This document shows positions 1 to 64,000 of a stretch of 64,000 nucleotides of DNA, piece by piece. How positions within the stretch are numbered: the stretch's first letter is position 1; the number at the start of each line of letters is the position of its first letter. Position numbers and translations under genes: made by a program. Under the pieces are notes generated by a model. It had not been told where the DNA came from and searched no databases. It saw only the letters and a list, made by a program, of their open reading frames with translations. The DNA lies in the NCBI RefSeq assembly GCF_003284895.1, contig NZ_QMDV01000003.1, positions 436,501-500,500 of the forward strand. Direction: 5' to 3'. Origin of the DNA: Pontibacter arcticus (lineage in GTDB: Bacteria; Bacteroidota; Bacteroidia; Cytophagales; Hymenobacteraceae).

Positions 1-1
1 T

Positions 2-1177
2 TACTATTACCCAACCAATGACCTGGTAACCGCTCCTGAAATTCTGTTCTTCTGGGTAGCACGTATGATCATGGCTGGTTTTGAATTCCGGAACGAGATG
101 CCATTCCGTAATGTGTACCTGACCGGTATTGTACGTGATGCACAGGGCCGTAAAATGTCTAAATCGCTGGGCAACTCACCGGACCCGCTGGACCTAATCG
201 AGCAATACGGTGCTGATGGCGTGCGTGCCGGTATGTTGTTCAGTTCGCCGGCTGGTAACGATTTGCTTTTTGATGAGAAACTGGTAGAGCAGGGCCGTAA
301 TTTCAGCAACAAGATCTGGAACGCTTTCAGATTGATTAAAGGATGGGAAGTAGACGAAAACCTGCCTTGCCCGAACGAAACGGCTATCCAGTGGTTTGAT
401 GCGCGCTTTAACGAAGCCTTCATTCAGCTGGAAGACCATTTTGAGAAGTTCCGTATTTCGGATGCTTTGCTGGCGGTGTACAAACTGGTGTGGGACGATT
501 TCTGCTCGAACTACCTGGAGATGATCAAACCGGCGTACCAGCAACCAATCGATGCGCGCACAATAGAAGCTACTGTTGGCTTCCTGGAGAACGTGCTGAA
601 GGTGTTGCATCCGTTTATGCCGTTTATCACAGAAGAGATCTGGCACGAACTGAAAACCCGCAAAGACAAGGAATTCCTGATCGTGGCAGCCTGGCCTAAA
701 AAAGATAAGCTGGATAAAGCGATTACGGAGCAAATGGAAGCCGTCCTGAATATTGTAGGCGCGATCCGTAACATCCGGAACTCTAAAAATATTCCGCAGA
801 CCAAGCAACTCGATCTTTCGATCAAAATTGTAAGCGATAATAAGTATGACGCGTTCCTGAGCATCATCACCAAACTGGCCAACGTAAAGGAAATCAGCTT
901 TGTGCAGGATAGCCTGGATGGTGCGATCAGTTTTGTAGAAGCCGGCGATGAGTTCTTTATACCAATGGAAGGTAATATTGACGTGGCAGCCGAGCGCGAG
1001 CGTTTAACCAAGGAGCTGGAGTATACCAAAGGTTTCCTAATCTCGGTAGCGAAAAAGCTAAGCAACGAGCGTTTTGTAAGCGGCGCACCCGAAGCAGTTA
1101 TTACGAACGAGCGCAAAAAGCAAGCCGACGCTGAAGCCAAGATCAAAGCAATAGAGCAAAGTCTGGCTACTTTATAA
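2..1177 (+). CDS. valS: Valyl-tRNA synthetase, C-terminal part (5' end outside window)
   Basis: Charges tRNA-Val with valine in the cytoplasm. The reading frame is open from base 2, so the gene enters from the left and only about 391 C-terminal residues are visible. The fragment begins in the class I catalytic core, with the APEILFFWVARM stretch, and then shows the class I signature KMSKS inside GRKMSKSLGNSPDPL. The anticodon-binding domain follows (HPFMPFITEEIWHEL), and the protein ends in the charged coiled-coil arm typical of bacterial ValRS (roughly the last 65 residues). A strong bidirectional hairpin terminator lies directly downstream. The family call is secure; the upstream half, including the HIGH motif and the editing domain, cannot be judged. 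Confidence 0.97.
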   Translation, partial: YYYPTNDLVTAPEILFFWVARMIMAGFEFRNEMPFRNVYLTGIVRDAQGRKMSKSLGNSPDPLDLIEQYGADGVRAGMLFSSPAGNDLLFDEKLVEQGRNFSNKIWNAFRLIKGWEVDENLPCPNETAIQWFDARFNEAFIQLEDHFEKFRISDALLAVYKLVWDDFCSNYLEMIKPAYQQPIDARTIEATVGFLENVLKVLHPFMPFITEEIWHELKTRKDKEFLIVAAWPKKDKLDKAITEQMEAVLNIVGAIRNIRNSKNIPQTKQLDLSIKIVSDNKYDAFLSIITKLANVKEISFVQDSLDGAISFVEAGDEFFIPMEGNIDVAAERERLTKELEYTKGFLISVAKKLSNERFVSGAPEAVITNERKKQADAEAKIKAIEQSLATL

Positions 1178-1194
1178 TCAGATTTATACTTTCA

Positions 1195-1230
1195 AAAAAG
1201 GCCGCTCTCTTTCGGGAGCGGCCTTTTTTT
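1195..1230 (+). terminator. Rho-independent terminator after valS, probably bidirectional
   Basis: An 8-bp GC-rich stem (GGCCGCTC at 1200-1207 pairing with GAGCGGCC at 1216-1223) is followed by seven T and preceded by six A. It can therefore stop valS from the left and the convergent minus-strand gene from the right. Two overlapping TATACTT motifs follow the T tract immediately. Confidence 0.9.
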
Positions 1231-1293
1231 ATACTTTATACTTTCGGGTTCAGAGAATACAATTTATACTTTTTAATTGTTATACTTGGCTGG

Positions 1294-1881
1294 CTACTTT
1301 ATACTTTGCAACAGCTGTTCAACTTCTTTTTCGTAGCGTGGAAGCACATCATCCAGCCCTTCTTTTTTACCTGAATACCCAATCTGTACTTGCCTGTTCT
1401 CGATTTTATACTTTAATAAACCTTGTTCGGCCTCGGTCAGGTAATATAGTTTAATTGGGTTTGATTTTGTGGCTATCACGTAGGTCCGGAAAGTGAAGTT
1501 GTTTTTTATGTGCAGCTGTGTTGGCGGGCGGTTCTCGAGGTAGCGTTGCGTCACGACTGTATCCAGGTTTATGGTGCTTTCGATCTGGTGCAGCGCTTTT
1601 ATGTCTCCATCCGGAAAAATCCAGCTTGTAATCTCATGGTTACCAGCTTTTTTAGAAGTATGATTTGCTTTTGCAAGATCTAGGGAGGCAGCTAGCTGCA
1701 GCAGTTGCAGATCTGCTGTAACGGTTTCAAAAGAAGGATTGGTCGTAGCATTATCATCTATAATATACCTGCTGTTTTTCTGAAGGATAGCATAATCTTT
1801 TTCAATATCCTGCTGCAGGAGAAGCGTATCCGTACCCATCAGATAAAACGGGAAGAGTAGTAAGAGTAAAGTATAGAGCAT
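1294..1881 (-). CDS. Hypothetical exported protein
   Basis: I do not recognise this 195-residue protein. The N-terminus has a short hydrophobic segment (LYTLLLLLFPFYLMG) that looks like a signal peptide or single membrane anchor. The rest is a soluble mix of helix and strand with no cysteines and no obvious catalytic motif. It is the last of three consecutive minus-strand genes for small envelope proteins, 43 bases after the SIMPL-domain gene, so co-transcription is plausible. The ATG at 1881 is the only start that keeps the hydrophobic N-terminus. Function unknown. Confidence 0.7.
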   Translation of the reverse strand: MLYTLLLLLFPFYLMGTDTLLLQQDIEKDYAILQKNSRYIIDDNATTNPSFETVTADLQLLQLAASLDLAKANHTSKKAGNHEITSWIFPDGDIKALHQIESTINLDTVVTQRYLENRPPTQLHIKNNFTFRTYVIATKSNPIKLYYLTEAEQGLLKYKIENRQVQIGYSGKKEGLDDVLPRYEKEVEQLLQSIK

Positions 1882-1924
1882 CAGCTTAAAGTATAGTGTG
1901 TACTATCAGAACTCAAATTTCGTG

Positions 1925-2629: not shown

Positions 2630-2638
2630 AAAGTTGGT

Positions 2639-3142: not shown

Positions 3143-3218
3143 GGTATCAGGTTAGTTTATACTTGCACGTATACTTTAGCTAAGGTAAAAAAGATAAACA
3201 TGGCATCATCAGGTTAAA

Positions 3219-4816: not shown

Positions 4817-4846
4817 CAAAGTTAATGATTTTAGCCTATTCCTCAA
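4817..4846 (-). promoter_or_regulatory. Bacteroidota-type promoter for the E2 gene
   Basis: On the minus strand, TTG at 4846-4844 is followed after exactly 19 bases by TAACTTTG at 4824-4817. This matches the Bacteroidota primary sigma-factor consensus TTG-N19-TAnnTTTG. The -33 element lies inside the last codons of cinA, and the start codon of the E2 gene is about 150 bases downstream, which leaves a long leader. It is the best complete promoter match in the window. Confidence 0.65.
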
Positions 4847-6095
4847 CGCTTGCCAGTAAAGTTTGCCTGATCAGGTTAAGGGCCACCATGGCCGTATATT
4901 CGATATTTAATTTGCGGTCTTTATTATAATGTATAAGCTTCGCGACTGTTTTGCCTTTAAAAGCACAGGCCACCCAAATCGTACCGACCGGTTTTTCGGG
5001 CGTTCCGCCGCCAGGTCCGGCAATGCCGCTGGTTGCTACGCCAACGTCGGTGTTAAATTTAAGGCATACATTTTCGGCCATTTCGCGCACGGTAGCTTCG
5101 CTTACGGCACCATGCTGTAGTAAGGTTTCTTTTTTTACGTTGAGCTCCCGTATTTTTACTTCGTTGTGGTAGGCAATTATACTTCCCTGAAAGTAGGCAG
5201 AGCTGCCGGCTATACTTGTAAGCTTATGTGCCAGGTAACCGCCCGTACAACTTTCGGCGGTGGCGATAGTCAGGTTACGGTCTTTTAAAAGTATACCGAT
5301 CGCTTCTTCCAACGGAATCTCACCAATGGCAAAAATGTAGCCTGGGATGATGTGCTGAAGCTTTTTAACTTCGTTGTCGAGTTCCTGCTCCAGTATAGTG
5401 GCTTCATCACCCTGGCCGGTTAAGCGCAGGCGCACCCCGCTCAGGCTGGGCAAATAAGCGAGTTTAATATGAGGCGGCAGGTTGGTTTCCCAGTCTTCGA
5501 TGCGCTCGGCAAGTATGGATTCGGCAATGCCGGTGGTCTGGATAACTTTATGAATAATCTCGGGCGTTTTAAAATAGGCTTTCAGCTTCGGAAGTATAAG
5601 TTCTGTCATCATCAGCTTCATCTCAAACGGCACGCCGGGCATCGACACAAAAACTTTTCCGTCTTCCTCGAACCACATACCTGGTGCCGTGCCAATGGCA
5701 TTGCGGATGGGGGTGCAGCTCTCCGGTAAAAAGGCTTGTTGCCGGTTCAGTTCGGTTATATCGATGTTACGTTTCCTGAAAATAGCGCTGATATCAGCCA
5801 GCGAAGGCTCGTGCAACTTAAGAGAAGTATGGAAATAGGAGGTAAGTACCGTTTTTGTCAGGTCGTCTTTGGTGGGGCCAAGTCCGCCGGTAATCAAGAT
5901 AATGTCAGCGCGGGTGCGGGCATCGTTCAGGGTACTTATAATGTGGGCCTCATTATCAGAAACAGATGTAATCTGCTGTACTCTTATGCCTAGTTTTGTT
6001 AGTTCAGCGCCCATCCAGGCCGAGTTGGTATCTACTACCTGCCCGTACAGGAGCTCGTCTCCGATGGTGATTATTTCAGCAAGAACTGTTTTCAT
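4836..6095 (-). CDS. cinA: CinA family protein (MoCF-like domain plus NMN deamidase domain)
   Basis: A 419-residue protein with the full two-domain CinA architecture. The N-terminal MoCF/COG1058 domain (about 1-170) shows ITIGDELLYGQVVDTNS and ITGGLGPTKDDLT. The C-terminal CinA/PncC domain (about 258-415) shows TAESCTGG and the GIAGPGGGTPEKPVGT motif. The C-terminal domain hydrolyses the amide of nicotinamide mononucleotide, and full-length members may also act on ADP-ribose-like substrates (known of the family). The name reflects competence-induced expression in Gram-positives and does not show competence here. The ATG at 6095 gives the canonical N-terminus. Confidence 0.93.
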   Translation of the reverse strand: MKTVLAEIITIGDELLYGQVVDTNSAWMGAELTKLGIRVQQITSVSDNEAHIISTLNDARTRADIILITGGLGPTKDDLTKTVLTSYFHTSLKLHEPSLADISAIFRKRNIDITELNRQQAFLPESCTPIRNAIGTAPGMWFEEDGKVFVSMPGVPFEMKLMMTELILPKLKAYFKTPEIIHKVIQTTGIAESILAERIEDWETNLPPHIKLAYLPSLSGVRLRLTGQGDEATILEQELDNEVKKLQHIIPGYIFAIGEIPLEEAIGILLKDRNLTIATAESCTGGYLAHKLTSIAGSSAYFQGSIIAYHNEVKIRELNVKKETLLQHGAVSEATVREMAENVCLKFNTDVGVATSGIAGPGGGTPEKPVGTIWVACAFKGKTVAKLIHYNKDRKLNIEYTAMVALNLIRQTLLASVEE

Positions 6096-15928: not shown

Positions 15929-17491
15929 ATGCAAAGATACAGTATTTTATGGGCCGATGATGAAATCGACCTGCTCAAGCCACACATCCTTTTCCTGACT
16001 GATAAAGGCTACGACATCACCCCGGTAAACAGTGGTGCCGATGCTATCGAAAAATTTCAGGAACAAAGCTATGATGTGGTTTTTTTAGATGAGAACATGC
16101 CCGGCATCAGTGGCCTGGAAACGCTGGCCGAACTCAAAACCATTCGCCCGGCAGTGCCCGTAATTATGATCACCAAAAGCGAGGAAGAGCATATTATGGA
16201 GGAGGCCATCGGCTCCAAAATAACAGATTACCTCATCAAGCCCCTCAACCCGAACCAGATCCTGCTTTCCGTTAAAAAAGTATTGGATAACAAACGCCTT
16301 GTTTCCGAGAAAACGAATATGAGCTACCAGCGCGATTTCCGTACGCTGGGCATGGCTTTTGGCGAGCGCCTGAGCCCCGCCGAGTGGACCGATATTTACA
16401 AAAAACTGGTGTACTGGGAGCTGGAGATCGACGAGACCGAAAACAAAAGTATGGCCGACGTCATCAACATGCAGAAAGATGAGGCAAACTCGAATTTTGC
16501 AAAGTTTGTGATGGAGAACTACGAGGAATGGGTAAACAACGAAAGCGATGAAGCGCCGCTTATGTCGCACCAGTTGTTTAAGGAGCGTGTTTTCCCGATG
16601 ATGAAGGAATCGGATAAGCCGGTATACTTTATTTTAATTGATAACCTGCGCTACGACCAGTGGAAAGTGCTGGAGCCGATCATCTCAGACTACTTTAATG
16701 TAGATAACGAGGAAATGTTCTATTCCATACTTCCGACCACAACGGCGTACGCCCGTAATGCCATTTTTTCGGGTATGCTGCCCAGTGATATCGCGAAGAA
16801 GTTTCCGAACCTGTGGGTATCTGACGATGACGACGAAGGCAAGAACCTGAACGAATCGGAGTTCCTGGATAGAATGATGCAGCAGAACCGCATCAGCGAA
16901 AAGTATAGCTATCACAAAATTACAAACCCGGCTGCCGGCAAAGACCTGTTAGGCAAATTCAGTAACCTGGATAACAACAAACTGAACGTGATTGTCTATA
17001 ACTTTGTGGATATGCTCTCGCATGCCCGCACCGATAGCAACATGGTGCGCGAGCTAGCCCCCGACGAATCGGCTTACCGTTCTATTACGCGTTCGTGGTT
17101 CATGCACTCGCCTTTATTTGAAACCCTTAAGCTCATCGCTGAGAAAAAAGGACGTGTTATCATCACCACAGACCACGGTACGATCCGGGTAAAGAAACCA
17201 TTTAAAATTATTGGCGACCGCAACACTAACACCAACCTGCGCTATAAGCATGGTAAAAACCTGGGTTACACCGATAAGGATGTGTTCACGGTTAAAAAGC
17301 CCGAACGATTTTTCTTGCCAAAAGCCAATGTTTCTACTACGTTTGTGTTTGCGATAGAAGATTATTTTTTCGCCTATCCGAATAATTACAATTACTATGT
17401 GAACTACTACAAGGATACCTTCCAGCACGGGGGCATATCGTTGGAGGAAGTGATCATTCCGTTTGTAACACTTTCACCTAAAAATGTATAA
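15929..17491 (+). CDS. porX: PorX: response regulator with PglZ/alkaline-phosphatase-like output domain
   Basis: Two-domain regulator of the type IX secretion system. Residues 1-125 are a CheY-like receiver with an acidic pocket (D10, D11), the phospho-acceptor D54 in FLDENMPG and a K in IKPLNP. A helical linker follows. Residues from about 210 form the PglZ domain of the alkaline phosphatase superfamily, with ILIDNLRYDQW, the nucleophile-type Thr in LPTTTAYARN, NFVDMLSHAR and TTDHGTIRVKKP. Known PorX proteins are controlled by PorY and hydrolyse phosphodiesters in vitro. Its partner PorY is not in the window. The downstream tsaE gene overlaps by 8 bases. Confidence 0.95.
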   Translation: MQRYSILWADDEIDLLKPHILFLTDKGYDITPVNSGADAIEKFQEQSYDVVFLDENMPGISGLETLAELKTIRPAVPVIMITKSEEEHIMEEAIGSKITDYLIKPLNPNQILLSVKKVLDNKRLVSEKTNMSYQRDFRTLGMAFGERLSPAEWTDIYKKLVYWELEIDETENKSMADVINMQKDEANSNFAKFVMENYEEWVNNESDEAPLMSHQLFKERVFPMMKESDKPVYFILIDNLRYDQWKVLEPIISDYFNVDNEEMFYSILPTTTAYARNAIFSGMLPSDIAKKFPNLWVSDDDDEGKNLNESEFLDRMMQQNRISEKYSYHKITNPAAGKDLLGKFSNLDNNKLNVIVYNFVDMLSHARTDSNMVRELAPDESAYRSITRSWFMHSPLFETLKLIAEKKGRVIITTDHGTIRVKKPFKIIGDRNTNTNLRYKHGKNLGYTDKDVFTVKKPERFFLPKANVSTTFVFAIEDYFFAYPNNYNYYVNYYKDTFQHGGISLEEVIIPFVTLSPKNV

Positions 17492-17930
17492 AACAGGAGT
17501 AGAAAAAGCACGTTTACAGATGTCGTCGTTGGAAGATTTGCCAGCGGCGGCTTCTGTGCTTTTAGGCATGGCCAAAGAGCAGCCGGTTATACTTTTCGAG
17601 GGGCCGATGGGAGCCGGAAAAACGACGCTCATCAAGGAATTCTGCCGCCAGATGGGCGTAAAAGAGAATGTCAGCAGCCCCACGTTTGCGCTTGTAAACG
17701 AATACGAAACAACGGAAAGGAAACTAATTTATCATTTTGATTTTTATAGAATAAGAAATGAGCGGGAAGCACTCGATATCGGCACACTGGAGTATTTTGA
17801 TTCCGGGCGTATGTGTCTGATCGAGTGGCCCTCGCTGGTGCCTGGTTTGTTGCCGGAGCATTACTTGCTTGTAACTTTACAGCCCGCACCCGAAAGTGAG
17901 GTGCGCACCATGACCATTAATCAGGTTTAG
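17484..17930 (+). CDS. tsaE: tRNA threonylcarbamoyladenosine biosynthesis ATPase TsaE
   Basis: ATPase partner of TsaB-TsaD in making the t6A37 modification of ANN-decoding tRNAs. The 148 residues have a P-loop (GPMGAGKTT, 40-48), the switch-like SPTFALVNEYE and the HFDFYRI motif of the family, then LIEWPSLVPGLLPE. The start at 17484 overlaps porX by 8 bases. A second ATG at 17520 would give a product 12 residues shorter that also covers the whole domain, so the start is not certain. It is one base upstream of ald, so the three genes look co-transcribed. Confidence 0.93.
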   Translation: MYKTGVEKARLQMSSLEDLPAAASVLLGMAKEQPVILFEGPMGAGKTTLIKEFCRQMGVKENVSSPTFALVNEYETTERKLIYHFDFYRIRNEREALDIGTLEYFDSGRMCLIEWPSLVPGLLPEHYLLVTLQPAPESEVRTMTINQV

Positions 17931-17931: not shown

Positions 17932-19158
17932 ATGACGAAGAGCTTAACTGCAGAGTTGGGGAGATTAGCAGCCAGCCAGGCGCTATATCCAAAAGAGTCG
18001 ATGCTGGCCATTGATGAACGTAAGCACAGCCTGTTTATCGGTATTCCAAAAGAATCATCTTTTCAGGAAAACAGGATCGGGCTCACACCTGATGCAGTAA
18101 AACAACTCATCGACCACGGCCATACCATCTGGATCGAGACAGGTGCCGGAGAGCCATCCAAATACTCGGACCACGAATACTCGGAGGCAGGGGCTAAAGT
18201 GGTTTATGCTACCCCGGAAGTATACGAGGCCGATATCATACTTAAAATTGCCCCGCCTACTTACGACGAGATTGCCTACCTCAAGCCTGGCCAGACTTTA
18301 ATTTCTGCGTTGCACTTCGGCAACCTGACGTCCGATTACATCAATGCGCTGCTTAAGAAAAAGATAAACGCTATTTCGTTTGAGCTGATACGTGATAAAT
18401 CGGATTCGAAACCGGTTGTACGTGCCATGAGCGAAATTGCAGGCAGCACCGTTATGCTGATCGCAGCGCATTACATGAGCAGCAGCGAAGATGGCAAAGG
18501 TATGATACTAGGCGGCATAACCGGCGTACCACCATCCAAAGTAGTTATACTTGGGGCCGGCACCGTAGCCGAATATGCGGCGCGCGCTGCACTGGGTTTA
18601 GGGGCAGAAGTAAAAGTATTTGACAATCATATCTATAAATTACGCCGGCTGAAGCATAACATCGGCGCACAGCTTTTTACCTCCACATTAGATAAAGCCG
18701 TACTCTACAACGAAATAAAGCAGGCTGATGTGGTAATTGGCGCACTGGTGGCCGAAGACAGTGTGATGCCTTGTATGGTTGAAGAAGCTGTGGTAAGCCA
18801 GATGGCAGCTGGTTCGGTTATTATTGATGTATGCATCGACCAGGGGGGCTGTTTTGAAACGTCAGAGCTTACCTCGCATAGCCGCCCGATCTACCGCAAG
18901 TATGATATCATTCATTATTGCGTACCTAACATTGCATCGCGGGTGCCGCGTACAGCATCCAACGCATTAAGTAATATCTTCACGCCCATCTTCACCGAAA
19001 TTTCAAAGTATGGCGGCATCAACGAAGTGCTGTTCACAAATGAGCATTATCGCAACGGTGTATATATTTACCGCGGCAGCCTCACCAACAGTACCATCGC
19101 TAAAAAATTCGGGATGCGTTACAAAGAGTTAGGGTTGATGATCGCCGTCAGAAATTAA
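17932..19158 (+). CDS. ald: Alanine dehydrogenase
   Basis: Interconverts L-alanine and pyruvate plus ammonia with NAD+. The 408 residues comprise the substrate-binding domain (about 33-175, with IPKESSFQENRIGLTP and METGAG-like ETGAGEPS) and a Rossmann NAD domain with VVILGAGTVAEYAAR at about 202-216. The family's late VDVCIDQGG-type loop is seen as IDVCIDQGGCFET. It is about 35 residues longer at the N-terminus than the classical ~371-residue enzyme. It follows tsaE with a one-base gap. Confidence 0.92.
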   Translation: MTKSLTAELGRLAASQALYPKESMLAIDERKHSLFIGIPKESSFQENRIGLTPDAVKQLIDHGHTIWIETGAGEPSKYSDHEYSEAGAKVVYATPEVYEADIILKIAPPTYDEIAYLKPGQTLISALHFGNLTSDYINALLKKKINAISFELIRDKSDSKPVVRAMSEIAGSTVMLIAAHYMSSSEDGKGMILGGITGVPPSKVVILGAGTVAEYAARAALGLGAEVKVFDNHIYKLRRLKHNIGAQLFTSTLDKAVLYNEIKQADVVIGALVAEDSVMPCMVEEAVVSQMAAGSVIIDVCIDQGGCFETSELTSHSRPIYRKYDIIHYCVPNIASRVPRTASNALSNIFTPIFTEISKYGGINEVLFTNEHYRNGVYIYRGSLTNSTIAKKFGMRYKELGLMIAVRN

Positions 19159-24276: not shown

Positions 24277-25737
24277 ATGGAAGTCCCTCATCTCAAAACA
24301 AAAATTATCAGTGGTATTTTCTGGAATATAACCCAGCTTGCGGTAAACAAAATGTTTGCCTTTATCATAAAGCTTGTACTGGCCAGATTGCTTTTTCCTG
24401 AAGAATTTGGTCTGGTGGGAATGGCAGTTGTATTTACCACTTTTATTCAGGTTTTCAATGATCTGGGTCTGGGTGGAGCACTGGTACAACGCAAAGACGA
24501 AGACCTGAGAGAAGCGCATTACCATACTGCTTTCTGGACCGGCATTGCCTGGTCGGTCGTTATTTATCTGATTATTACTTTTATTGTAGCACCGCTTGCT
24601 GCCATGTTCTACGGAGAGCCGTTGCTGCGCAGCGTGATACCTGTATTAAGTATAGGCGTACTGGCCAGTCCTATTAACCTGGTGCACAGAGCGCAGCTAA
24701 CAAAGCAGATGAATTTCAAGAAGCTTGCTTTTATTAACAATGCCCCTGTTATTTTTTCCGGAGTGGTTTCCATTACGCTGGCTTTTATGGGCTTTGGTGT
24801 ATGGTCTCTGGTATTTAACTCAGTGGCTGCCTTTGTGGTAGCTATGCCGCTTTATTTTATGGCTACCCACTGGATGCCTAAATTTATCTGGGAGAAAGAA
24901 GCCTTTAATGACATCTTTGGTTTTGGTATGTTTACTACCGGTAGCAGTGTAGTGAATGTGGTAGTAGCTAATATTGATTATTTGTTGATCGGTAAGTTAT
25001 TGAGCGCTGCCGCACTAGGTAAGTATACGCTCGCTTTTGTGCTGACAGATACCTTCCGGAATAAAATGACTACCATGATAAACCGCGTGATGTACCCGGT
25101 TTACGGCAAAAAGCAAGGCAACCCAAAAGCGCTGCGGAACTTCTATTTTAAAGTTGTAAAGTATAATAGTATCTGTATTTACCCGGTCATGCTGTTCCTT
25201 ATCATACTTGGGGAGCCTTTTGTCATTAATGTTTTCGGGGAGAAGTGGATAGAAGCAGTTGGCCCGTTAAAGATTCTGGCCTTTTCTGTGATGATCCATA
25301 TACTTGTTAACAGCCACGCCATCCTTATCAGAGGGCTCGGTAAAGCCCGCCTCGAAATGCGGATCCAGTTTCTGAAAGCAGCTTTATACGTGCCTACCAT
25401 TGCAGCTGGTATTTATTTCTACGGAACAGAAGGAGCCGCCTGGGCTTACGTTTTCAACAAGGTGCTGGAAGTTATAATTGCCCAGTATTACCTTAAAAAG
25501 CTGGTCGATATTACACCGCTAGACCTTTTCATGACCATGCGCCCGCCTTTACTGGCAAGCATTGTTACGTTTGCGATCACGTATATGCTCTATGTCCTGG
25601 GGCTGCATTATATCTTATGCACCCTTGTACTCGGTATCACTTTCGGGGCTATCATCTGGCTATCCATGAAAGCGGAGTTGCTGGAGAATATTACCAGTAT
25701 TAAGAACATGCGCAAAAAAGTAAGCCCGGTGGCCTAA
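24277..25737 (+). CDS. Wzx-like flippase (MOP superfamily polysaccharide transporter)
   Basis: A 486-residue integral membrane protein with about 14 hydrophobic segments. It belongs to the MOP/MATE-like oligosaccharide flippases (Polysacc_synt type), with features such as LVLARLLFPEEFGLVGMAVVF near residue 30 and LGLGGALVQRKDED. It should move undecaprenyl-linked repeat units across the inner membrane. It follows wzc by 135 bases and precedes the first glycosyltransferase by 48, on the same strand. Confidence 0.92.
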   Translation: MEVPHLKTKIISGIFWNITQLAVNKMFAFIIKLVLARLLFPEEFGLVGMAVVFTTFIQVFNDLGLGGALVQRKDEDLREAHYHTAFWTGIAWSVVIYLIITFIVAPLAAMFYGEPLLRSVIPVLSIGVLASPINLVHRAQLTKQMNFKKLAFINNAPVIFSGVVSITLAFMGFGVWSLVFNSVAAFVVAMPLYFMATHWMPKFIWEKEAFNDIFGFGMFTTGSSVVNVVVANIDYLLIGKLLSAAALGKYTLAFVLTDTFRNKMTTMINRVMYPVYGKKQGNPKALRNFYFKVVKYNSICIYPVMLFLIILGEPFVINVFGEKWIEAVGPLKILAFSVMIHILVNSHAILIRGLGKARLEMRIQFLKAALYVPTIAAGIYFYGTEGAAWAYVFNKVLEVIIAQYYLKKLVDITPLDLFMTMRPPLLASIVTFAITYMLYVLGLHYILCTLVLGITFGAIIWLSMKAELLENITSIKNMRKKVSPVA

Positions 25738-29078: not shown

Positions 29079-29996
29079 ATGAATACTAACCACCCTGGCT
29101 TTACAGTTATTATCCCGGTGCATAATAAACTGCCGCACCTGGAGCGATCCATTCATTCCGTGCTCAACCAAACATATGCGGACGTTGAGCTTATACTTGT
29201 AGATGACGCTTCTACAGACGGCTCAACTGAGAAACTGGCAACATTTAACGATCCAAGGGTAAAAAAATTCAGGAGGGATGTGCCCGGACCGGGCGGGTAT
29301 GCTGCCCGTAACGTAGGCATACACCATGCTACCAAGGAGTGGATCTGTTTTCTGGATGCCGATGATGAATGGGAATTAAATCTGTTGGAGACCTTGGCAG
29401 CTGAAATTAACAAGGACCAGGAGCTCGAAACCATTTGCTGGGGTTGGTATTTGACAACAGGCCAGAACAAAGTATTGAACCCGTATTCAGCCCAGAATAA
29501 GCAGGTAGCATCCAGAACCATAACGCTGGTTGATTTTCTGATCGGGCCGCAACAAATCTGGACCGGTGCCGTGGCATTTAAGAAATCGTTAATAATAAAA
29601 GCAGGTGGTTTTCCGGAACAGGGCTTTAAGCGTGGTGGCGATATGGATACCTGGACCAGGTGCTTGTGGTATAGCAAGAAAAGTATCTGGCTGAATAAAG
29701 CGATGTCGTACTACTACCTGGATTCTGTAAACATGGTAACGCAGCATACCGGCCGTAACATCGATTTTATTTTCTCGCCTTTTCTGGAGAGTCTGCTGCA
29801 AAAAGGCGACCCTGAAGTGAAAGAAGCCATCCATAATTACCGGAACCGGTATTTATACATTATGCTGAACGGGCAGGTATACGAGGGCAAAGGTATAAAC
29901 TACGGTGTCCTGAAAAAGATGTATCTTAACAAACAGGCGGTGTGGCTAACGGCTAAGCTACACTTAAATAAACTGCGCCTCGCCGTAAAAGCCTGA
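29079..29996 (+). CDS. Family 2 glycosyltransferase
   Basis: A 305-residue GT2 enzyme with FTVIIPVHNKLPHLERSI, LVDDASTDGSTE, the acceptor loop GGYAARNVGI and metal motif DADDE. The KRGGDMDTWTRCL stretch is the catalytic ED-type site. It is separated from the ATP-grasp gene by 147 bases and precedes the wzy-like gene. One linkage of the repeat unit is the likely product. Confidence 0.9.
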   Translation: MNTNHPGFTVIIPVHNKLPHLERSIHSVLNQTYADVELILVDDASTDGSTEKLATFNDPRVKKFRRDVPGPGGYAARNVGIHHATKEWICFLDADDEWELNLLETLAAEINKDQELETICWGWYLTTGQNKVLNPYSAQNKQVASRTITLVDFLIGPQQIWTGAVAFKKSLIIKAGGFPEQGFKRGGDMDTWTRCLWYSKKSIWLNKAMSYYYLDSVNMVTQHTGRNIDFIFSPFLESLLQKGDPEVKEAIHNYRNRYLYIMLNGQVYEGKGINYGVLKKMYLNKQAVWLTAKLHLNKLRLAVKA

Positions 29997-30161
29997 TCGT
30001 CTGAACTTATAAATCTGGGTAGTATAAAACATCTTTAGCATTACTTTCAGTTAAATATGTTACCGTTTACATCGTCAGACTAAATAAAAATTACGTCATT
30101 GCATACTGGCTGGTCCAGAACCGTACAAACAGTTAATAGGAACTGCTCCAATTAAATTAAA

Positions 30162-31475
30162 ATGGTAAGAGAATATTTGGCTCAGACAGGACCTGAGATT
30201 GTGCTTGAGAACAGAAGAAAAATGCAGCTCGACTGGGGCTTCATTTTAACTATCCTGGCTGTGGCAAGTACGTTTTTAGGCAACTCGCTGGTGAGGCTGG
30301 ATCTTGGCATTTTTACCTTGTACCCGCTGCGTTTACTTGGCTTTATGGGCGTGTTTTACATGCTCATTAACCAGAAGTGGGATGACCCTTTTCTGTCGTT
30401 TACCTCCAAGTTTATCTTCTTTATGATGATACTGGGGTTTATCAGTATTTTCTGGGCGCCCGACACAGTACTGGCTATTAAAGAATTTGGGGTACTGCAA
30501 ACAGGCCTAACCTTAACCTGGCTCCTAACCAAGTACATTAACACTGAAAAGCGCGTGGAGCTGGTCTTGCTGATCTGGGTGCTGGGAGCCATACTTGTAA
30601 ACATGATCGGGCTTTGGGAAGTTGTAAACCAGAAATTCCTGATCGTGGAGAAAATGGGCGGCAAACTGGAAAGGGAAATCGAACGAATCGGGGCACTGGC
30701 ACCACGTTCTATCTTTGTAAACCAGAACAATTATGCATTCTTTAATGCGATAACAGCACCGGTGCTGCTTGGTATGTTCGTTAAGAAAACACGCCCGTTG
30801 TGGCATTATTTAGTTACCGGCTTTAGCTTGGCGCTCAGTGTTTATCTGCTTATCAGCTCCTACTCCAGGGCTGCGATGGGAGGTTTTGCACTGGCACTAA
30901 TCTTTTTTGCTGTCTTCACATTCTTTACTAAAAGTAATCATAAGATAAGTGTACTGAAGTTACTGGGCATTGCTGCTATAGCTATTGCACTGATCGTGGC
31001 AGTAAATACCTCATTACTGGATGTGATTACGAATAAACTAGACATGGTAGTCGAGAAAAATAACCAGCGCACCGATGAGAGTCGGGCAGATATCTATGCC
31101 GAAAACCTGGCGCTTGTAGCAAATAACCTTGGCATAGGCATGGGCCCGGGCTCGTCTTACGATAAAGTTGATAACCTGCCACCGCATAATTTTTTCCTGC
31201 AAATATTGGTAGAATACGGGCTTGTAACTGTATTGGGTTTTCTTTGGATCTTTTATAGGGTATTTAAAAGATACGGCTTGTATAAACAAGTTATGCCGGA
31301 TGCTTTGCCCTATATCTTACGAGCTTCCATACTTGCTTTTCCGTTAATGAGCATCGGACCAAGCTCTATTGTAGGCGAGGGTATCTTCTGGTTATGGTTC
31401 GGATTTATCATTGCCTATAGCTCCATTATGCTGCGCAAATACTGCAGTGTATTGCCCCCAAAGGAGATTGATTAA
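30162..31475 (+). CDS. O-antigen ligase/polymerase family membrane protein (Wzy-like)
   Basis: A 437-residue multi-spanning protein with about ten or more hydrophobic helices and the Wzy_C/O-antigen ligase pattern. The pattern includes NQNNYAFFNAITAPVLLG, SSYSRAAMGGFALALI and the late periplasmic loop ending PPHNFFLQILVEYGL. Given wzx-, wza- and wzc-like partners it is most likely the repeat-unit polymerase, though ligase and polymerase cannot be separated by eye. The large periplasmic loop lies at about residues 290-350. Confidence 0.85.
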   Translation: MVREYLAQTGPEIVLENRRKMQLDWGFILTILAVASTFLGNSLVRLDLGIFTLYPLRLLGFMGVFYMLINQKWDDPFLSFTSKFIFFMMILGFISIFWAPDTVLAIKEFGVLQTGLTLTWLLTKYINTEKRVELVLLIWVLGAILVNMIGLWEVVNQKFLIVEKMGGKLEREIERIGALAPRSIFVNQNNYAFFNAITAPVLLGMFVKKTRPLWHYLVTGFSLALSVYLLISSYSRAAMGGFALALIFFAVFTFFTKSNHKISVLKLLGIAAIAIALIVAVNTSLLDVITNKLDMVVEKNNQRTDESRADIYAENLALVANNLGIGMGPGSSYDKVDNLPPHNFFLQILVEYGLVTVLGFLWIFYRVFKRYGLYKQVMPDALPYILRASILAFPLMSIGPSSIVGEGIFWLWFGFIIAYSSIMLRKYCSVLPPKEID

Positions 31476-31530
31476 AATGTAAAGAATTAAATCTCAGGTA
31501 TATCTGCCTAGGCTCAAACTAAATTATAAC

Positions 31531-32637
31531 ATGAAGAAAATCTGCTTTTTTCCGGGCACGCTTGCGCTTGGGGGCATTGGAAAGCTATTTGTTAACCTGA
31601 TCGAAGAATATGCAGCTCGCAACATAGCTGTTGACGTTTTCCTGACAAAAAAAGAAGGCGAATTTCTAGACCAGATTCCGGCCAATGTACGCATTATCGA
31701 GGGCAAGGGCCGTGCCCTTACCAGCATCCCGAAGTTTATTAAGTATCTGAATGCTGAACGCCCCGATGCTGTGATTTCTGCACGGGAGTTCCTTAATATC
31801 GTGAACATTGCTTGCTGCGCGTGTTCTTCGGCTCCGACGCTACCGGTCGTGTCGCTGCACACTAACCAAACTGCTCAGAACTTTTACACCAACACTGATA
31901 AGAGCCTCTACTCCAATTCTTACTTTATCAGAATGGCCAGGATGCTCTACAAGAAGCCGAAAAAGATCATTGCCGTATCGGGTGGCGTGGCCGATGACTT
32001 TGCTATGCGGATGGGGGTGCCGCGCCAGAAGATCGAGGTGATCTACAATCCGGTTTATAAAGAGTATGTAGAAGAAGCCGCGCCTGTTAACCAAACCTTC
32101 CAGACTTTCACTAAAGATGGGCGCAGATTCATAGTAGGTGTAGGCCGCTTTGCCCTGCAAAAGGACTTCAGCACCCTGCTTAAAGCCTTCCACCTGGTAA
32201 GGAAAACCGATGACATTACGTTGATCTTATTAGGAGAAGGCCCCTTGCGGCAGGAGCTTGAAGCAGAAATAAAATCGTTAGGCTTAACTGAAAATGTTTT
32301 GCTGCTGGGCTTTGTTGATAACCCGTTATATTACATAAAGCGGGCAGCAGCCATTGCCGTTTCCTCCAAGTTTGAAGGTTTTGGGAATATAATTGTAGAG
32401 GCATTAGGTGTAGGAACGCCAGTTGTTTCTACTGATTGCCCGAGCGGGCCGAGCGAGATTCTGGAAAATGGCAAGTATGGAAAACTGGTACCAGTAGGAG
32501 ATCCGCAGGCTATGGCCACTGCTATAGTAGAAACACTCCACGAAACCCATAATCCGGCTGCCCTAATTGCCCGCGCACGGGATTTTGCTGTTCCTAAAAT
32601 TGCGGACGAGTACCTGGCTTATATTTACAGCAATTAA
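31531..32637 (+). CDS. Family 4 glycosyltransferase
   Basis: A 368-residue GT-B fold glycosyltransferase. The N-terminal half has the glycine-rich acceptor loop (PGTLALGGIGKLFVNLIEEY). The C-terminal half has VGVGRFALQKDFSTLLKAF and the E-x7-E donor site EGFGNIIVEALGVGTP, followed by CPSGPSEIL. That last motif is common in GT4 enzymes of the N-acetylgalactosaminyl/rhamnosyl type, but the donor is not assignable. It is the last gene before the perfect palindrome and the opposite-strand lyase-family gene. Confidence 0.91.
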   Translation: MKKICFFPGTLALGGIGKLFVNLIEEYAARNIAVDVFLTKKEGEFLDQIPANVRIIEGKGRALTSIPKFIKYLNAERPDAVISAREFLNIVNIACCACSSAPTLPVVSLHTNQTAQNFYTNTDKSLYSNSYFIRMARMLYKKPKKIIAVSGGVADDFAMRMGVPRQKIEVIYNPVYKEYVEEAAPVNQTFQTFTKDGRRFIVGVGRFALQKDFSTLLKAFHLVRKTDDITLILLGEGPLRQELEAEIKSLGLTENVLLLGFVDNPLYYIKRAAAIAVSSKFEGFGNIIVEALGVGTPVVSTDCPSGPSEILENGKYGKLVPVGDPQAMATAIVETLHETHNPAALIARARDFAVPKIADEYLAYIYSN

Positions 32638-32646
32638 AGAATCGCT

Positions 32647-32700
32647 TCATAAAGAAAAAATGCCTGCAACGTTAACGTTGCAGGCATTTTTTCTTTATGA
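32647..32700. terminator. 54-bp perfect palindrome, bidirectional terminator
   Basis: Bases 32647-32673 are the exact reverse complement of 32674-32700, with no loop bases and the dyad centre between AACGTT halves. The GC-rich core (TGCCTGCAACGTT) is flanked by an A-rich left and a T-rich right end, so it works as a terminator in both directions. It lies between the convergent GT4 gene (ends 32637) and the lyase-family gene (ends 32712). Confidence 0.9.
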
Positions 32701-32711
32701 GCATTTGTTAG

Positions 32712-33923
32712 TTAATGTACTAAGAGGTTTTTGCTGTCTACTGAAATAAGGGATGTAGTTGGATGGTTTAAATAAGATTCGAGTTCATGGGTTTTGTAAA
32801 CATTTAAAGCCGTTTTAGCGAGAGGTAAAAATCCTTCCAGTTTAACGCCTCTTATCTCTTTGTATTCCCATTCTTTCTGGCCGTTAGCATAAGGTAACAT
32901 CCATAAAAAGCCTTTTTTCAGGTTTTTGCCATCCTTCGAAGTATAATTCCAGATATCTACGCCAGCCTTATCGCCAATTTTAGCCAGGCTACTCCATCCG
33001 TTCAGGTTTTTTATACTATACGTCCAGGCTCTGGAGCGCTTCAGTTCGTACGGCTGGCGGCCTTCTTCATCAAACTGCTTATCAATTCTCTTTAGGGTAG
33101 TGTTGGTAAGGTATTTTCTGGCCAGTGGTTTGTTCCCCGAAAACATAGCGTAAGTAACAACCTGCAGGTCGTAAAATGTACCGATATTATTTGGTTCTTT
33201 TACGCCATCTTTGCCGACCTCGCTGGTCAGCATCCAGTTTACAAATTGCCCGAACCAGTTTTGCAGCGCTTTCTGGTTGGCTGCTGTCCACGCTTCCGAG
33301 CCTTGCAATAATTGCACACCATCAATTAACCGGGTAAAATGCTGGGTATCTATCAAACCAATCGCACGCCCGTCGTTCACTCCCCTGATCGACTGGCCAA
33401 AGTTCAGGTTCGGATTCATTTTAGTTTCGGCGTCTATAAAGAAAATGCATAACAGGTCAGCCGCTTTTTTAGCGTATTGTTCTCTGCCGGTAAAGTAATA
33501 GGCAAGGCCCAGTGTTTCTACATCTCTGCTGATATTTACCACATGCTTCTGATCCTTTACACTATTTACTTCCGGATTGGTCTTGCCGTCCTTATTAATA
33601 TAAGGTAGTCCATCAGCCGTATAAGGGTTTGGCCACCAGTAAGGCGCCAGGCTCATATAATCGTTCTTGCTGCCGCTTGGAGGCGTAAGGGCTTTATCGG
33701 TAATGGTATACGGTTTTTTTTGCAGGATCTTATCTGCTTTAAAGATTAGCTCGTTAACAGCAACCTGGTGCGCTAAACTGCCGCGCTCCACCTTCAGCTT
33801 ATTTTGCAGCAGTTGTTCGCCATTAAGTATAAAGGTTTCGGGTATGGCCTGTGCAGAAGCTGCCGGGAAGTATAAAAGTTGTAACAGAATAAAAAAGGGT
33901 ACTATCTGAAGTATAAATTTCAT
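32712..33923 (-). CDS. Alginate lyase family protein (secreted)
   Basis: A 403-residue protein with an N-terminal signal peptide (about 1-24, ending SAQA) and an alginate-lyase-type (alpha/alpha) toroid domain. Family features seen are APYWWPNPYTADGLPYINKDG, YYFTGREQYAKKAADLL, the active-site pair in EPNNIGTFYDLQV and LKRSRAWTYSI. Members cleave uronic-acid polymers by beta-elimination, although many homologues have other or untested substrates. It is the only minus-strand gene inside the polysaccharide locus. A role in trimming the polymer, as AlgL does in alginate loci, is inference. Confidence 0.85.
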   Translation of the reverse strand: MKFILQIVPFFILLQLLYFPAASAQAIPETFILNGEQLLQNKLKVERGSLAHQVAVNELIFKADKILQKKPYTITDKALTPPSGSKNDYMSLAPYWWPNPYTADGLPYINKDGKTNPEVNSVKDQKHVVNISRDVETLGLAYYFTGREQYAKKAADLLCIFFIDAETKMNPNLNFGQSIRGVNDGRAIGLIDTQHFTRLIDGVQLLQGSEAWTAANQKALQNWFGQFVNWMLTSEVGKDGVKEPNNIGTFYDLQVVTYAMFSGNKPLARKYLTNTTLKRIDKQFDEEGRQPYELKRSRAWTYSIKNLNGWSSLAKIGDKAGVDIWNYTSKDGKNLKKGFLWMLPYANGQKEWEYKEIRGVKLEGFLPLAKTALNVYKTHELESYLNHPTTSLISVDSKNLLVH

Positions 33924-50720: not shown

Positions 50721-51121
50721 GTATACCTTTTTAACACGTATATGCTAACAGCCAGCCTCCTCCAGGCTGGCTGTTAGCATATAAGAGGCCATCTGTTTAA
50801 CATAACTTTTACTTATACTTCGCCAGCTTTGCAGCGCTATGTTATGGTACTGTTATGGAGTTTTTATGAACTTTCTGATGTATGTGTTTACTATTTTAAA
50901 CAGAGTTTAAAAAGTATAAACCTTCGTTCCGCATTTACGTTATTAGCCTGAGTTCCGAATATTGTGAAAACCTAATAGAAGCTTGTCAAGAAGACATAAA
51001 CCCATACTCAAGTCCTTTTCAGAAGGATGAAAGTATACTTTAAGACATCGTTTCTAAGTTAAATAAAAGTATCCTTTACAAAAAGGAGGCTTTAAAGTCC
51101 AAAAGTTAATAAGCGTATTTT
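50721..51121. other. 401-base intergenic region after B2
   Basis: It starts with a very strong hairpin (50740-50782), followed by AT-rich DNA with several AAGTATA/TATACTT motifs, one as the palindrome AAAGTATACTTT near 51030. No gene candidate. It marks the return from the secreted-protein block to glycosyltransferase genes and probably holds a promoter, which I could not place. Confidence 0.45.
50740..50782 (+). terminator. 19-bp perfect hairpin after B2
   Basis: Bases 50740-50758 pair without mismatch with 50764-50782 around a 5-base loop (CCTCC). No T tract follows, so it may act as an RNA 3'-end stabiliser or attenuator instead of a classical terminator. Confidence 0.65.
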
Positions 51122-58564: not shown

Positions 58565-58606
58565 TAACAAAAAAGCCGGCAAGTATACTTGCCGGCTTTT
58601 TTGTTA
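58565..58606. terminator. 42-bp perfect palindrome, bidirectional terminator centred on AAGTATACTT
   Basis: Bases 58565-58585 are the exact reverse complement of 58586-58606, with no unpaired centre. The core is AAAAAAGCCGGC and its complement, and the dyad axis falls in AAGTATACTT. It lies between the convergent pglF-like and fumarylacetoacetase genes. Confidence 0.9.
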
Positions 58607-60396: not shown

Positions 60397-60402
60397 TTGT
60401 TT

Positions 60403-61506: not shown

Positions 61507-61528
61507 AAGTATAATGCGAATCGCGGAG

Positions 61529-61536
61529 CAAAGATA
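61529..61536 (-). promoter_or_regulatory. -7 promoter box of the mrp-nifU-like operon
   Basis: The minus strand reads TATCTTTG, a full TAnnTTTG match, 23 bases upstream of the mrp ATG. No TTG was found at the expected -33 distance. Confidence 0.5.
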
Positions 61537-61701
61537 CGAACAAAAAATTTCTTATCTCAGAAGGCCGCCGCCTTTGATGGTTAAACAAGCAAGTATAACT
61601 TTAAGTTTGTTTAGTATAAGGTAACACAATAGCAGGTTATAAATTAAGCAAGTATAAAAGTATGAGCTGTTTTCGTACAGCAAACAATCAGCAATTACAC
61701 T

Positions 61702-61709
61702 TATCTTTG
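61702..61709 (+). promoter_or_regulatory. -7 promoter box of dnaG
   Basis: TATCTTTG matches TAnnTTTG 21 bases before the ATG at 61731. A TTG at -33 is not evident. Confidence 0.5.
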
Positions 61710-61730
61710 TAGCCCCTTACGTTTAGCGCC

Positions 61731-63647
61731 ATGTCCCTTATCCCCAAAGAAACCGTTGACCAGATACTTGCCCAGGCCGATATTACGGAAGTGGTAGGCG
61801 ATTTTGTGTCTTTGAAGAAAAAGGGACAGAACATGTGGGCCTGCTGCCCATTCCATCACGAAAAATCACCTTCCTTCTCGGTTTCTCCGGCCAAAGGTAT
61901 TTATAAGTGTTTTGGTTGTGGCAAAGCTGGTAACTCGGTGCAGTTTATCATGGATGTGGAGGGTACCAGCTTTCCGGAGGCCTTAAAATACCTGGCCAAA
62001 AAGTATGGCATCGAGATTCCGGAAGAAAAACCGACGGCAGAGTATACCCAGCAGCAAAGCGAGCGCGACAGTTTATACATTGTTTCTGATTTTGCGAGCA
62101 AGCATTTTCATAACCGCTTGCTGCACCACGAGCAGGGCAACATCGGGCAATCCTACTTAAAACAACGCGGCCTGAGTGCGCAAACCATACAGAAATTTGA
62201 GTTGGGCTATAGCCTCGATGAATGGACCGACCTGACAGATATAGCGCTTAAAGCAGGCTATCAGCAGAAGTTCCTGGAGGCAACGGGTCTTACCATAGCC
62301 AAAGAAGACGGCAAAAAGTATGACCGTTTCCGGGCACGTGTCATGTTTCCGATCCACAACCTGTCGGGGCGCGTGGTAGGCTTCGGAGCGCGTACACTAA
62401 AATCAAACGACAAGAAAAGCCCGAAATACCTGAACTCCCCCGAGTCGGATATTTACCACAAAAGCAGCGTACTCTACGGCCTTTTTCAGGCTAGGCAGGC
62501 CATCCGGATGCAGGATATGTGTTATATGGTGGAAGGGTATCTGGATGTACTTTCCCTGCATCAGGGCGGCATCGAGAACGTAGTTTCTTCGTCGGGTACC
62601 TCGCTTACCGAAGGGCAGATCAAGCTGATTTCGCGTTATACCCAGAATATTACGGTACTATACGACGGCGATGCAGCAGGTATAAAAGCCTCCTTGCGCG
62701 GCATCGACCTGATCCTGGAAAATGGCCTGAACGTGAATGTGGTTACGTTTCCGGAAGGCGAAGATCCGGACTCCTACATCCACAAAGTTGGCGATACAGC
62801 TTTTAAAAAGTATGTACAGGAGCAGGCCCAGGACTTTATTTCTTTCAAAACCAGCCTTTACGCCTCCGAAACCAAGCACAACCCGGTCAAAAAAGCCGAG
62901 GCTATCCGCGAAATCGTTACCTCTATCTCTAAAATTCCGGACTCAATCAAGCGTACGGTATTCTTTAGAAGCTGCAGCCTTATTTTTGATATTGACGAGC
63001 AGGTACTTATTTCAGAGTACAACAAAATGCAGCTGCAGGAGCGCCAGCCCACCCGTACCGGCAGTCCTGCAACAGATGCAGCTGCTACCTCGGAACCTGC
63101 ACCTGCTCCCGACAAACCGGTAACGGACAACGATCTTTTAAAGCGCTACGAACGCGAAATTGTACGGATGCTGCTGCATTACCCGGATTCTCTGTTGGAT
63201 GAAGGCATCACGACCAGCCAATACATGTTGCAGGAACTTGATGATATTGAGTTTGTAACGCCGCTTTATATCCAGATAATCGAGTTCGTAAAACAGAAGC
63301 TGAGCCAAGGTGTGCTGCCGGTTGCCGATGATTTTATCAACTACCCGAAGGAAGAGATCAGAACCGAAGCAATTTCGCTGCTTTCGGAACCCTACGAGCT
63401 CAGCCACAACTGGGAAACCCACGAAATTTTTGTACCTAGGGAAACCGATTTGTTGCCTTACGGGGCAGAACGCGCTGTGCTGCGGTTAAAATGGCGCAAT
63501 GCAGATATTTTACTTAAAGCCGAACGCGAAAAACTACGCCTTGTATCAGACCCGGCTGAAGTAGACCGTGTGCTCAATACCATTCTCGCTTTAAATACTT
63601 ATTACAAAGAGCTGGGCAATATGCTGGGCATTGTCGTGAACAGGTAA
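61731..63647 (+). CDS. dnaG: DNA primase
   Basis: Makes RNA primers at the replication fork. The 638 residues have the CHC2 zinc finger (C39, H42, C60, C63 in CCPFHHEKSPSF and YKCFGCGKAGN). The catalytic core follows, with the DnaG N-terminal domain (LGYSLDEWTDL, FRARVMFPIHNLSGRVVGFGAR) and TOPRIM motifs (MVEGYLDVL near 266, LYDGDAAG near 310, DPDSYI). A linker rich in Ala/Pro/Thr (about 440-470) separates it from a helical C-terminal helicase-binding domain. Length is normal. Confidence 0.96.
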   Translation: MSLIPKETVDQILAQADITEVVGDFVSLKKKGQNMWACCPFHHEKSPSFSVSPAKGIYKCFGCGKAGNSVQFIMDVEGTSFPEALKYLAKKYGIEIPEEKPTAEYTQQQSERDSLYIVSDFASKHFHNRLLHHEQGNIGQSYLKQRGLSAQTIQKFELGYSLDEWTDLTDIALKAGYQQKFLEATGLTIAKEDGKKYDRFRARVMFPIHNLSGRVVGFGARTLKSNDKKSPKYLNSPESDIYHKSSVLYGLFQARQAIRMQDMCYMVEGYLDVLSLHQGGIENVVSSSGTSLTEGQIKLISRYTQNITVLYDGDAAGIKASLRGIDLILENGLNVNVVTFPEGEDPDSYIHKVGDTAFKKYVQEQAQDFISFKTSLYASETKHNPVKKAEAIREIVTSISKIPDSIKRTVFFRSCSLIFDIDEQVLISEYNKMQLQERQPTRTGSPATDAAATSEPAPAPDKPVTDNDLLKRYEREIVRMLLHYPDSLLDEGITTSQYMLQELDDIEFVTPLYIQIIEFVKQKLSQGVLPVADDFINYPKEEIRTEAISLLSEPYELSHNWETHEIFVPRETDLLPYGAERAVLRLKWRNADILLKAEREKLRLVSDPAEVDRVLNTILALNTYYKELGNMLGIVVNR

Positions 63648-63802
63648 TTTATACTTCAGCACTAATTTTTAAAGTATAATGCTGTATATAATTTGTGCTT
63701 GTATTAAGTTATTTGTCTTCCTGCGTTATTCTTCAATCCCCCTATAACGCTTCCTCACATAAACTGTTAGCCAAATAAAGCGGCAATGCGCCGGAATCTT
63801 TG

Positions 63803-63810
63803 TAATTTTG
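63803..63810 (+). promoter_or_regulatory. Candidate -7 box of ribB
   Basis: TAATTTTG matches TAnnTTTG, 70 bases upstream of the ribB ATG. A -33 TTG is not evident. Confidence 0.4.
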
Positions 63811-63835
63811 TGGCAATTTAGAAAAAAGCACATTT

Positions 63836-63865
63836 GCCTGTGTGCGTTGCTGAAACCGCACAGGC
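63836..63865 (+). promoter_or_regulatory. Hairpin in the ribB leader
   Basis: GCCTGTG plus CG (63836-63846, with a 2-base bulge) pairs with CGCACAGGC (63857-63865). It ends 14 bases before the start codon, where it could affect translation. The conserved FMN riboswitch blocks are not present. Confidence 0.4.
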
Positions 63866-63879
63866 TTAATTATACTTGT

Positions 63880-64000
63880 ATGGAAACCAATACAACTGAA
63901 AATGCCAGACCGTTAGATTCTATCGAATCAGCGATTGAAGCGATACGAGAAGGAAAAGTAATTATAGTGGTAGACGATGACGACCGCGAAAATGAAGGCG
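63880..64000 (+). CDS. ribB: 3,4-dihydroxy-2-butanone 4-phosphate synthase, N-terminal part (runs out of window)
   Basis: The first 40 residues only. After a short leader peptide the sequence reads SIESAIEAIREGKVIIVVDD and then DDRENEG, the start of RibB, which converts ribulose 5-phosphate to the four-carbon riboflavin precursor. The acidic DDDDRENEG stretch holds metal and substrate ligands. Whether a GTP cyclohydrolase II domain (RibBA fusion) follows cannot be seen. The ATG at 63880 follows a TATACTTGT element. Confidence 0.9.
   Translation, partial: METNTTENARPLDSIESAIEAIREGKVIIVVDDDDRENEG

Follow-up and report, generated by a model that had tools for sequence, protein, structure and literature searches.

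The stretch of DNA analysed here (64,000 nucleotides of Pontibacter arcticus, assembly GCF_003284895.1, contig NZ_QMDV01000003.1, positions 436,501 to 500,500 of the forward strand; hereafter the window) is pervaded by the heptamer TATACTT and its reverse complement AAGTATA. Exact counting over positions 1–64,000 gives 133 copies on both strands together, against 10.85 (standard deviation 3.4) in dinucleotide shuffles, with none of 100 shuffles as high, and under the dinucleotide model no heptamer of the window is more over-represented; an earlier note on this DNA had arrived by eye at about 130. The variant CATACTT, which that note mentioned as adding more, contributes a further 50 copies against 9.6 expected.

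Six copies in the same orientation (plus strand, at 1185, 1230, 1237, 1265, 1281, and 1300) occupy positions 1185–1306, after an open reading frame (ORF) that ends at 1177 and carries valyl-tRNA synthetase domains. The full palindrome AAGTATACTT, in which two copies overlap, lies at 51031–51040 (minus-strand copy 51031–51037, plus-strand copy 51034–51040) and again at 58581–58590 (both strands), the latter in the gap between convergent ORFs (58549/58623). An intragenic example is the plus-strand copy at 18546–18552, which reads ATA-CTT in the frame of an AlaDh_PNT ORF (17932–19158). All but one of the positions listed earlier could be recovered to within a few bases: 1230–1243 (two in tandem), 42697, 47659, 58581–58590, 60108, and 17588, together with 18546, 23391, 25887, 26445, and 29192, these last five being, of the seven copies named as ATA-CTT, the ones so read by an ORF of 250 amino acids or more. 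The copy at 17588 is outside any ORF of that length, and at 25204 there is no exact copy (nearest 25159 and 25299).

The excess extends to the whole genome (3.77 Mb in seven contigs), which holds 8,844 copies against 429 of the reversed control, evenly divided between the strands (4,441/4,403, p = 0.69). Across about 400 kb of this genome, an order-2 model picks out the 8-mers AAGTATAA (608 against 29 expected) and AAAGTATAAA (217 against 4). The consensus is AAGTAT[AG][ACG]; other one-base variants stay mostly near expectation (0.5–3.3 times), and the excess of one-off words is 113 against 1,369 for perfect copies (ratio 0.08; AAGTATG, which counts as motif, is omitted from the near misses). 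Very high copy number over a composition model and, in this genome, a strong consensus with few single mismatches are both features of the DNA uptake sequences (DUS) and uptake signal sequences (USS) of other bacteria. Among kin the near-miss ratio is 0.39 when pooled, with 0.98 and 1.50 in the low-density genomes G049 and G071, both of which have unbroken competence genes.

A force acting on the DNA itself or on codon pairs had been proposed, with a promoter element judged unlikely, and we followed the placement of copies relative to genes over 680 kb of the genome (gene calls here and in the analyses of gaps and motif-free stretches are long non-overlapping ORFs made with no trained gene finder; 25 of 1,693 copies straddling gene edges were excluded from the frame counts). 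Sense and antisense copies within genes are equally common (518/531, p = 0.71), and all six frames exceed a synonymous-codon shuffle by 2.7–24 times, the total being 1,027 against 118 expected. ATA-CTT is the commonest sense frame (231/518), as is AGT-ATA among antisense frames (222/531), so that the preference for Ile-Leu and Ser-Ile pairs first seen by eye is real; given enrichment in every frame and on both strands, however, we read it as a consequence of the word and not its cause. The DNA-level part of the proposal holds, on the grounds of strand symmetry, six-frame enrichment, and the conservation between species described below, and the genome-wide excess persists beyond both composition and codon usage. 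Density rises from 1.85 copies per kb in coding DNA to 5.48 per kb between genes (about three times), reaching 10.3 per kb in the gaps of convergent genes and 5.6–5.9 in other gaps; it was by these densities that the earlier placing of copies beside or inside terminators was assessed. AAGTATACTT occurs 62 times in the same 680 kb. Strand splits in three long stretches are 284/235 (p = 0.035), 130/146, and 112/134. Intergenic preference and the absence of an orientation bias relative to genes or chromosome are again found in DUS and USS.

Motif-free gaps longer than 2.8 kb number nine against 1.4 expected. The longest such stretch of the window (29199–32938) lies mostly over Wzy_C and glycosyltransferase ORFs, and the largest single gap (L223) spans 5.6 kb and two long ORFs. 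We considered foreign-DNA islands and rejected them: the longest run of neighbouring gaps, a nearly motif-free stretch (L002:8407–19349, contig C1 of G000), lies over genes for cytochrome oxidase and NrfD/molybdopterin oxidoreductase, and this one examined case suggests that constrained core genes shed the word.

Among named records, those nearest to the window's DnaG come from Pontibacter. In 150 genomes of the family, strong TATACTT enrichment is confined to Pontibacter (50 genomes), the 100 genomes of five other genera standing at 0.75–2.5 times the reversed control; for the degenerate word ARSTATAR, the P. arcticus genome reaches 6.5 times its reversed control and the other 246 of 247 genomes of the class at most about 2.5 times. 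Enrichment within Pontibacter is uneven because other members have other words. Dialects sharing a TATA core were assigned by hand from the highest-ranking 7- and 8-mers in 20–40 kb per genome (G000 limited to 40 kb): AAGTATA(A) in 20 of the 50 genomes, AGGTATAG in 12, AACTATAG in four, AAC and AAG spellings together in three (G018, G028, G055), a TATATA-type word in G002, GGGTATAA in G115, and weak or no word in nine. In these nine, whole-genome TATACTT is 1.3–4.0 times the reversed control, and two of them (G073, G131) show a weak AACTATA-like signal. A genome without the TATA-core word, G125 (samples L037 and L104), carries GAGGTAGA 14 times in 25 kb against 0.5 expected.

A survey of named species (54 of 80 loci, one locus each, mostly 20–22 kb) gave the same picture. 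AAG spellings occur in P. aydingkolensis, P. cellulosilyticus, P. anaerobius, P. litorisediminis, P. mucosus, P. chinhatensis, P. flavimaris, P. ruber, P. oryzae, and P. vulgaris, the last also with AACTATA (21 against 4.3); AGG spellings in P. lucknowensis, P. amylolyticus, P. ramchanderi, P. aquaedesilientis, P. roseus, P. indicus, P. virosus, and several other isolates; AAC in P. populi, P. burrus, and Tf4; AAC plus AAG, hence a double dialect, in P. fetidus and isolate 903; and a GGTAT-type word in E15-1. The signal is weak or lacking in P. silvestris, P. harenae, P. diazotrophicus (9 against 2.2), P. pamirensis, P. mangrovi (8 against 1.8), P. qinzhouensis, P. ummariensis, P. beigongshangensis, and Botryobacter ruber. 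In Rufibacter immobilis (L155), CGTTTAGG was tried as the same phenomenon and set aside: ten of its 15 copies in 22 kb form pairs 30 bases apart, resembling repetitive extragenic palindromes, and two other Rufibacter loci hold 2 and 1 copies.

On a ComEC tree of 49 of the 50 genomes (G043 dropped, its frame being too short), a branch (93/99) separates the AGG genomes from the others, and the AAC and AAC-plus-AAG genomes form one starred clade. AAG requires five changes and the wordless state five, on a tree with a poorly resolved base, which leads us to suggest that AAG may be the ancestral spelling, lost several times. Logos from 35 genomes reduce to NNN-TATA, with T avoided at the next base in the three main dialects (0.03, 0.06, and 0.04) and flanks flat beyond about three bases. 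Full palindromes are in excess in each of three spellings (AACTATAGTT, 30 against 0.13; AGGTATACCT, 24 against 1.0; AAGTATACTT, 7 against 0.6). Clade-specific spelling around a conserved core is a further trait of DUS and USS.

Sister species retain the word. In all 24 same-dialect pairs (non-independent, with shared genomes, both directions counted, and possibly the same strain twice), it is kept more often than its anagrams, the closest pair standing at 0.25 against 0.22. Totals for word and anagrams are 342/507 against 1,809/4,251 for AAG, 352/492 against 1,933/5,016 for AGG, and 334/517 against 1,312/3,268 for AAC, a range across dialects of 0.65–0.72 against 0.39–0.43.

Plasmids and probable plasmids of the genus carry little of it. 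Outside the window, 36 stretches (16.5–20 kb each) of P. arcticus contigs C1–C5 hold 1.55–3.25 copies per kb, six stretches of contig C6 hold 0.40–0.60, and contig C7 (5.9 kb) has one copy. C6, a 74,337-base unit, is probably a circular plasmid, given the exact overlap in its assembly. Its polymerase gene shares 99.5% identity with a gene carried by a plasmid of P. actiniarum. Enrichment over own composition is 10.4 times for the chromosome (616 kb) against 2.1 times for C6, 9.9 times for the G071 chromosome against 2.9 times for the P. actiniarum plasmid (100 of 204 kb read), 10.0 against 1.4 times for the second contig of G129, and 9.7 against 1.5 times for that of G049 (60 of 116 kb read). 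These four replicons, comprising one annotated plasmid, one circular by overlap, and two (G129, G049) taken for plasmids because their assemblies have two contigs, give p values from 1.2e-11 to 8.3e-37, and scarcity on plasmids is likewise seen with DUS and USS. A general mutation or repair bias of the cell would be expected to mark plasmids too, unless all four are recent arrivals. As for its other content, C6 (L225–L230) carries defence genes; its inventory includes a HamA (Hachiman) gene, a reverse transcriptase, a TOTE-type helicase, DUF3800, an IS21-like transposase, and type III restriction-modification-like genes.

Genes for the inner steps of competence are present throughout. ComEC and DprA are matched in 50/50 genomes (DprA unbroken in 48), as is PF12836, mainly through a larger protein of about 750–816 amino acids; a separate ComEA-like HhH protein of 304–346 amino acids is found in 49 and lies in pieces in G087 (hand count from the listing). 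The P. arcticus version has three HhH stretches, ComEA matches, and, as judged by eye, a hydrophobic N-terminus. This set resembles the inner part of the machinery found by a transposon screen in Riemerella anatipestifer, another member of the Bacteroidota, whose pilus-free transformation is described as involving ComEC, DprA, and a three-HhH protein with no pilus homologues reported (PMC8459023). The outer-membrane pair of that machinery was not identified in Pontibacter. A 451-residue frame beside comEC, seemingly broken together with it in G043, was discarded as a candidate; it has no family match and looks spurious.

Taken together, these patterns lead us to favour, as somewhat the likelier account, that AAGTATA(A) and its sister spellings are the DNA uptake (self-recognition) sequence of a pilus-free competence system. 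By the same measure of belief, the word would work like an uptake sequence, its pattern being that of DUS in most features that could be tested, among them the less expected core-sharing dialects, dual-dialect genomes, and low plasmid density; the likeness to DUS raised in the earlier note agrees with the data in pattern, best of all in the clade dialects with their fixed core and in the plasmid contrast. We propose that a putative surface or periplasmic DNA-binding reader prefers double-stranded DNA bearing NNN-TATA-V, with the dialect set by the first three bases. Word-bearing fragments from kin would enter, travel past the ComEA-like HhH protein and then ComEC, and be recombined by DprA and RecA. 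The word would accumulate where coding constraint tolerates it and be kept against mutation because word-bearing fragments recombine more often; plasmids, not being spread by the uptake route, would stay without it; and a shift in reader specificity would let a genome drift to a new dialect by way of a stage with both words. The broader proposition, that a self-DNA uptake system evolved in Pontibacter independently of the Neisseriaceae and Pasteurellaceae, using no type IV pili and with at least three dialects, lineages in mid-switch, and a candidate envelope reader, we regard as evenly balanced.

The Neisseriaceae, whose DUS dialects are read by the receptor ComP, offer a close parallel (PMC3630211): thousands of copies, clade spellings round a fixed short core, intergenic preference, and a dual-dialect genome, Simonsiella muelleri being reported with two dialects at once. 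Mobile elements with an atypical DUS distribution are likewise described (PMC7371117). The Pontibacter word is, by contrast, a 7–8-mer with a TATA core and not a 10–12-mer with a CTG core (PMC3630211). With the USS of Pasteurellaceae (PMC1626085) it has in common a strong consensus and the lack of an orientation bias, as well as subclade spellings, two in USS, built on a shared core, and recent competence-gene defects in some species; it differs in lacking AT-rich flanking segments and in a density that, in many Pontibacter genomes, exceeds the roughly one copy per kb of USS. R. columbina prefers its own DNA, and only A-rich k-mers are listed in the accessible part of that report (PMC7965970), with no such word, unlike Pontibacter.

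Several observations weigh against an uptake function. Every DUS or USS system known to us relies on type IV pili; here the pilus family PF00482 was matched in 0/50 genomes (13 of 14 controls matched), and PF00437 gave only short weak P-loop matches, 3/50 just over the cut-off, in a search confined to these two pilus families. Spacing more regular than random, described for USS/DUS in PMC1626085, is also missing: gaps between copies vary more than random (coefficient of variation 1.10–1.23 in three stretches; variance-to-mean ratio 1.4–1.6 per kb), although stretch C2a is more regular at 5–10 kb (0.40–0.47). In these two features the word departs from DUS/USS. Spaced inverted pairs (terminators unmodelled) show no clear excess beyond the overlapping palindromes; convergent gaps are richer in the word. 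Nor do word and known machinery track each other. G087 (comEC, dprA, and the HhH gene broken; compared genes beside comEC intact) and G043 (comEC and dprA broken; most compared comEC neighbours intact) keep the word, as does G119 (comEC split), all three being apparent recent losses of competence, and in the nine genomes with no clear word comEC and dprA are unbroken and the HhH frame has its normal length. This mismatch would follow from non-selective competence or recent loss, but also from a function unrelated to competence. As a test of decay, the near-miss ratio of G087 is 0.71 against the pooled value for kin, to be set beside the higher ratios of G049 and G071 with their unbroken genes. 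Finally, DUF5689 (PF18942) failed as a Riemerella-type surface receptor, occurring in 22/50 genomes, including five of the nine wordless ones, and not following the distribution of the word; of its 22 loci, seven frames were viewed by eye, most of the shorter adjoining SusD-like-looking frames and the others being large proteins.

In the strongest alternative, the word is a binding site for a protein of nucleoid structure, segregation, or replication and for that reason is retained on chromosomes but not on plasmids, while dialects follow changes in that protein. Its scarcity on plasmids, its presence in every sampled stretch of large contigs, its conservation between species, and its survival in two genomes with broken competence genes would all suit such a site. 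The chromosome-organising sites known to us are, however, far rarer than this word, which exceeds two copies per kb in the P. arcticus genome, shows no strong strand polarity, is spelled by clade, and is absent from nine of 50 genomes, and we hold this explanation to be unlikely.

Cyanobacterial HIP1, the other comparison made in the earlier note, is also a word of very high copy number, similar density, and unknown function, and alternative words occur in a few HIP1-poor cyanobacteria (PMC4390886). A word of the HIP1 type, maintained by DNA methylation or by a methylation-directed repair ratchet, should nonetheless be a palindromic unit with an associated methyltransferase in nearly all carriers, and neither was found in a search of two methylase families. 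The Pontibacter word is not palindromic as a unit, its palindromic doubles being a minority of copies. Of the two families, PF01555 is present in 31/50 genomes, missing from 14 word-bearing ones, and matched in P. arcticus on the plasmid only, and PF07669, matched in 47/50 at E 0.001, has patchy strong matches with none in word-bearing G087 and G115. With non-palindromic copies, neither family accompanying them, and little of the word on plasmids of the same cells, the HIP1 likeness is not supported and the mechanism is improbable.

A Chi-like recombination hotspot for AddAB/RecBCD, over-represented, genome-wide, and clade-specific as this word is, fares worse still: Chi is strand-polar along the replichore, the strands here are equal genome-wide and split as given above in the three stretches (with the origin unmapped), the density is much higher than that of Chi, and we give the idea very little credence. 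A bias in composition, codons, or codon pairs, or a signal at the RNA level, might be thought to explain why 15% of ATA codons (440/2,929) lie in the motif and why Ile-Leu and Ser-Ile frames are commonest, but the synonymous-codon shuffle has already refuted it, and equal strands, higher intergenic density, and spelling that differs between sister clades leave it next to no probability.

The best-ranked literature listings we covered (subscription papers and preprints lay outside their scope) show no such word for Bacteroidota and no Pontibacter uptake sequence; papers matching the heptamer together with Bacteroidetes look unrelated. Uptake words are known to us from two families of pilus-bearing Proteobacteria; if the uptake-sequence reading is true, Pontibacter would be a third case, in a phylum where the entry of DNA through the outer membrane is unsolved, and self-DNA tagging would evolve repeatedly instead of arising as a side effect of pilus receptors. 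With its three main spellings, dual-dialect members, and losses, a set of dozens of related genomes would then amount to a natural experiment on the joint change of reader and site, and the word itself could serve as bait for the uptake receptor of Bacteroidota.

Three further features of the window may be recorded. An ORF of the CinA (competence-damaged protein) family lies on the minus strand at 4836–6095. The palindrome TTCCGGAA is also over-represented, with 18 occurrences (both strands counted) against 1.7 expected. At 15929–17491, a PglZ domain is fused to a response regulator receiver domain.

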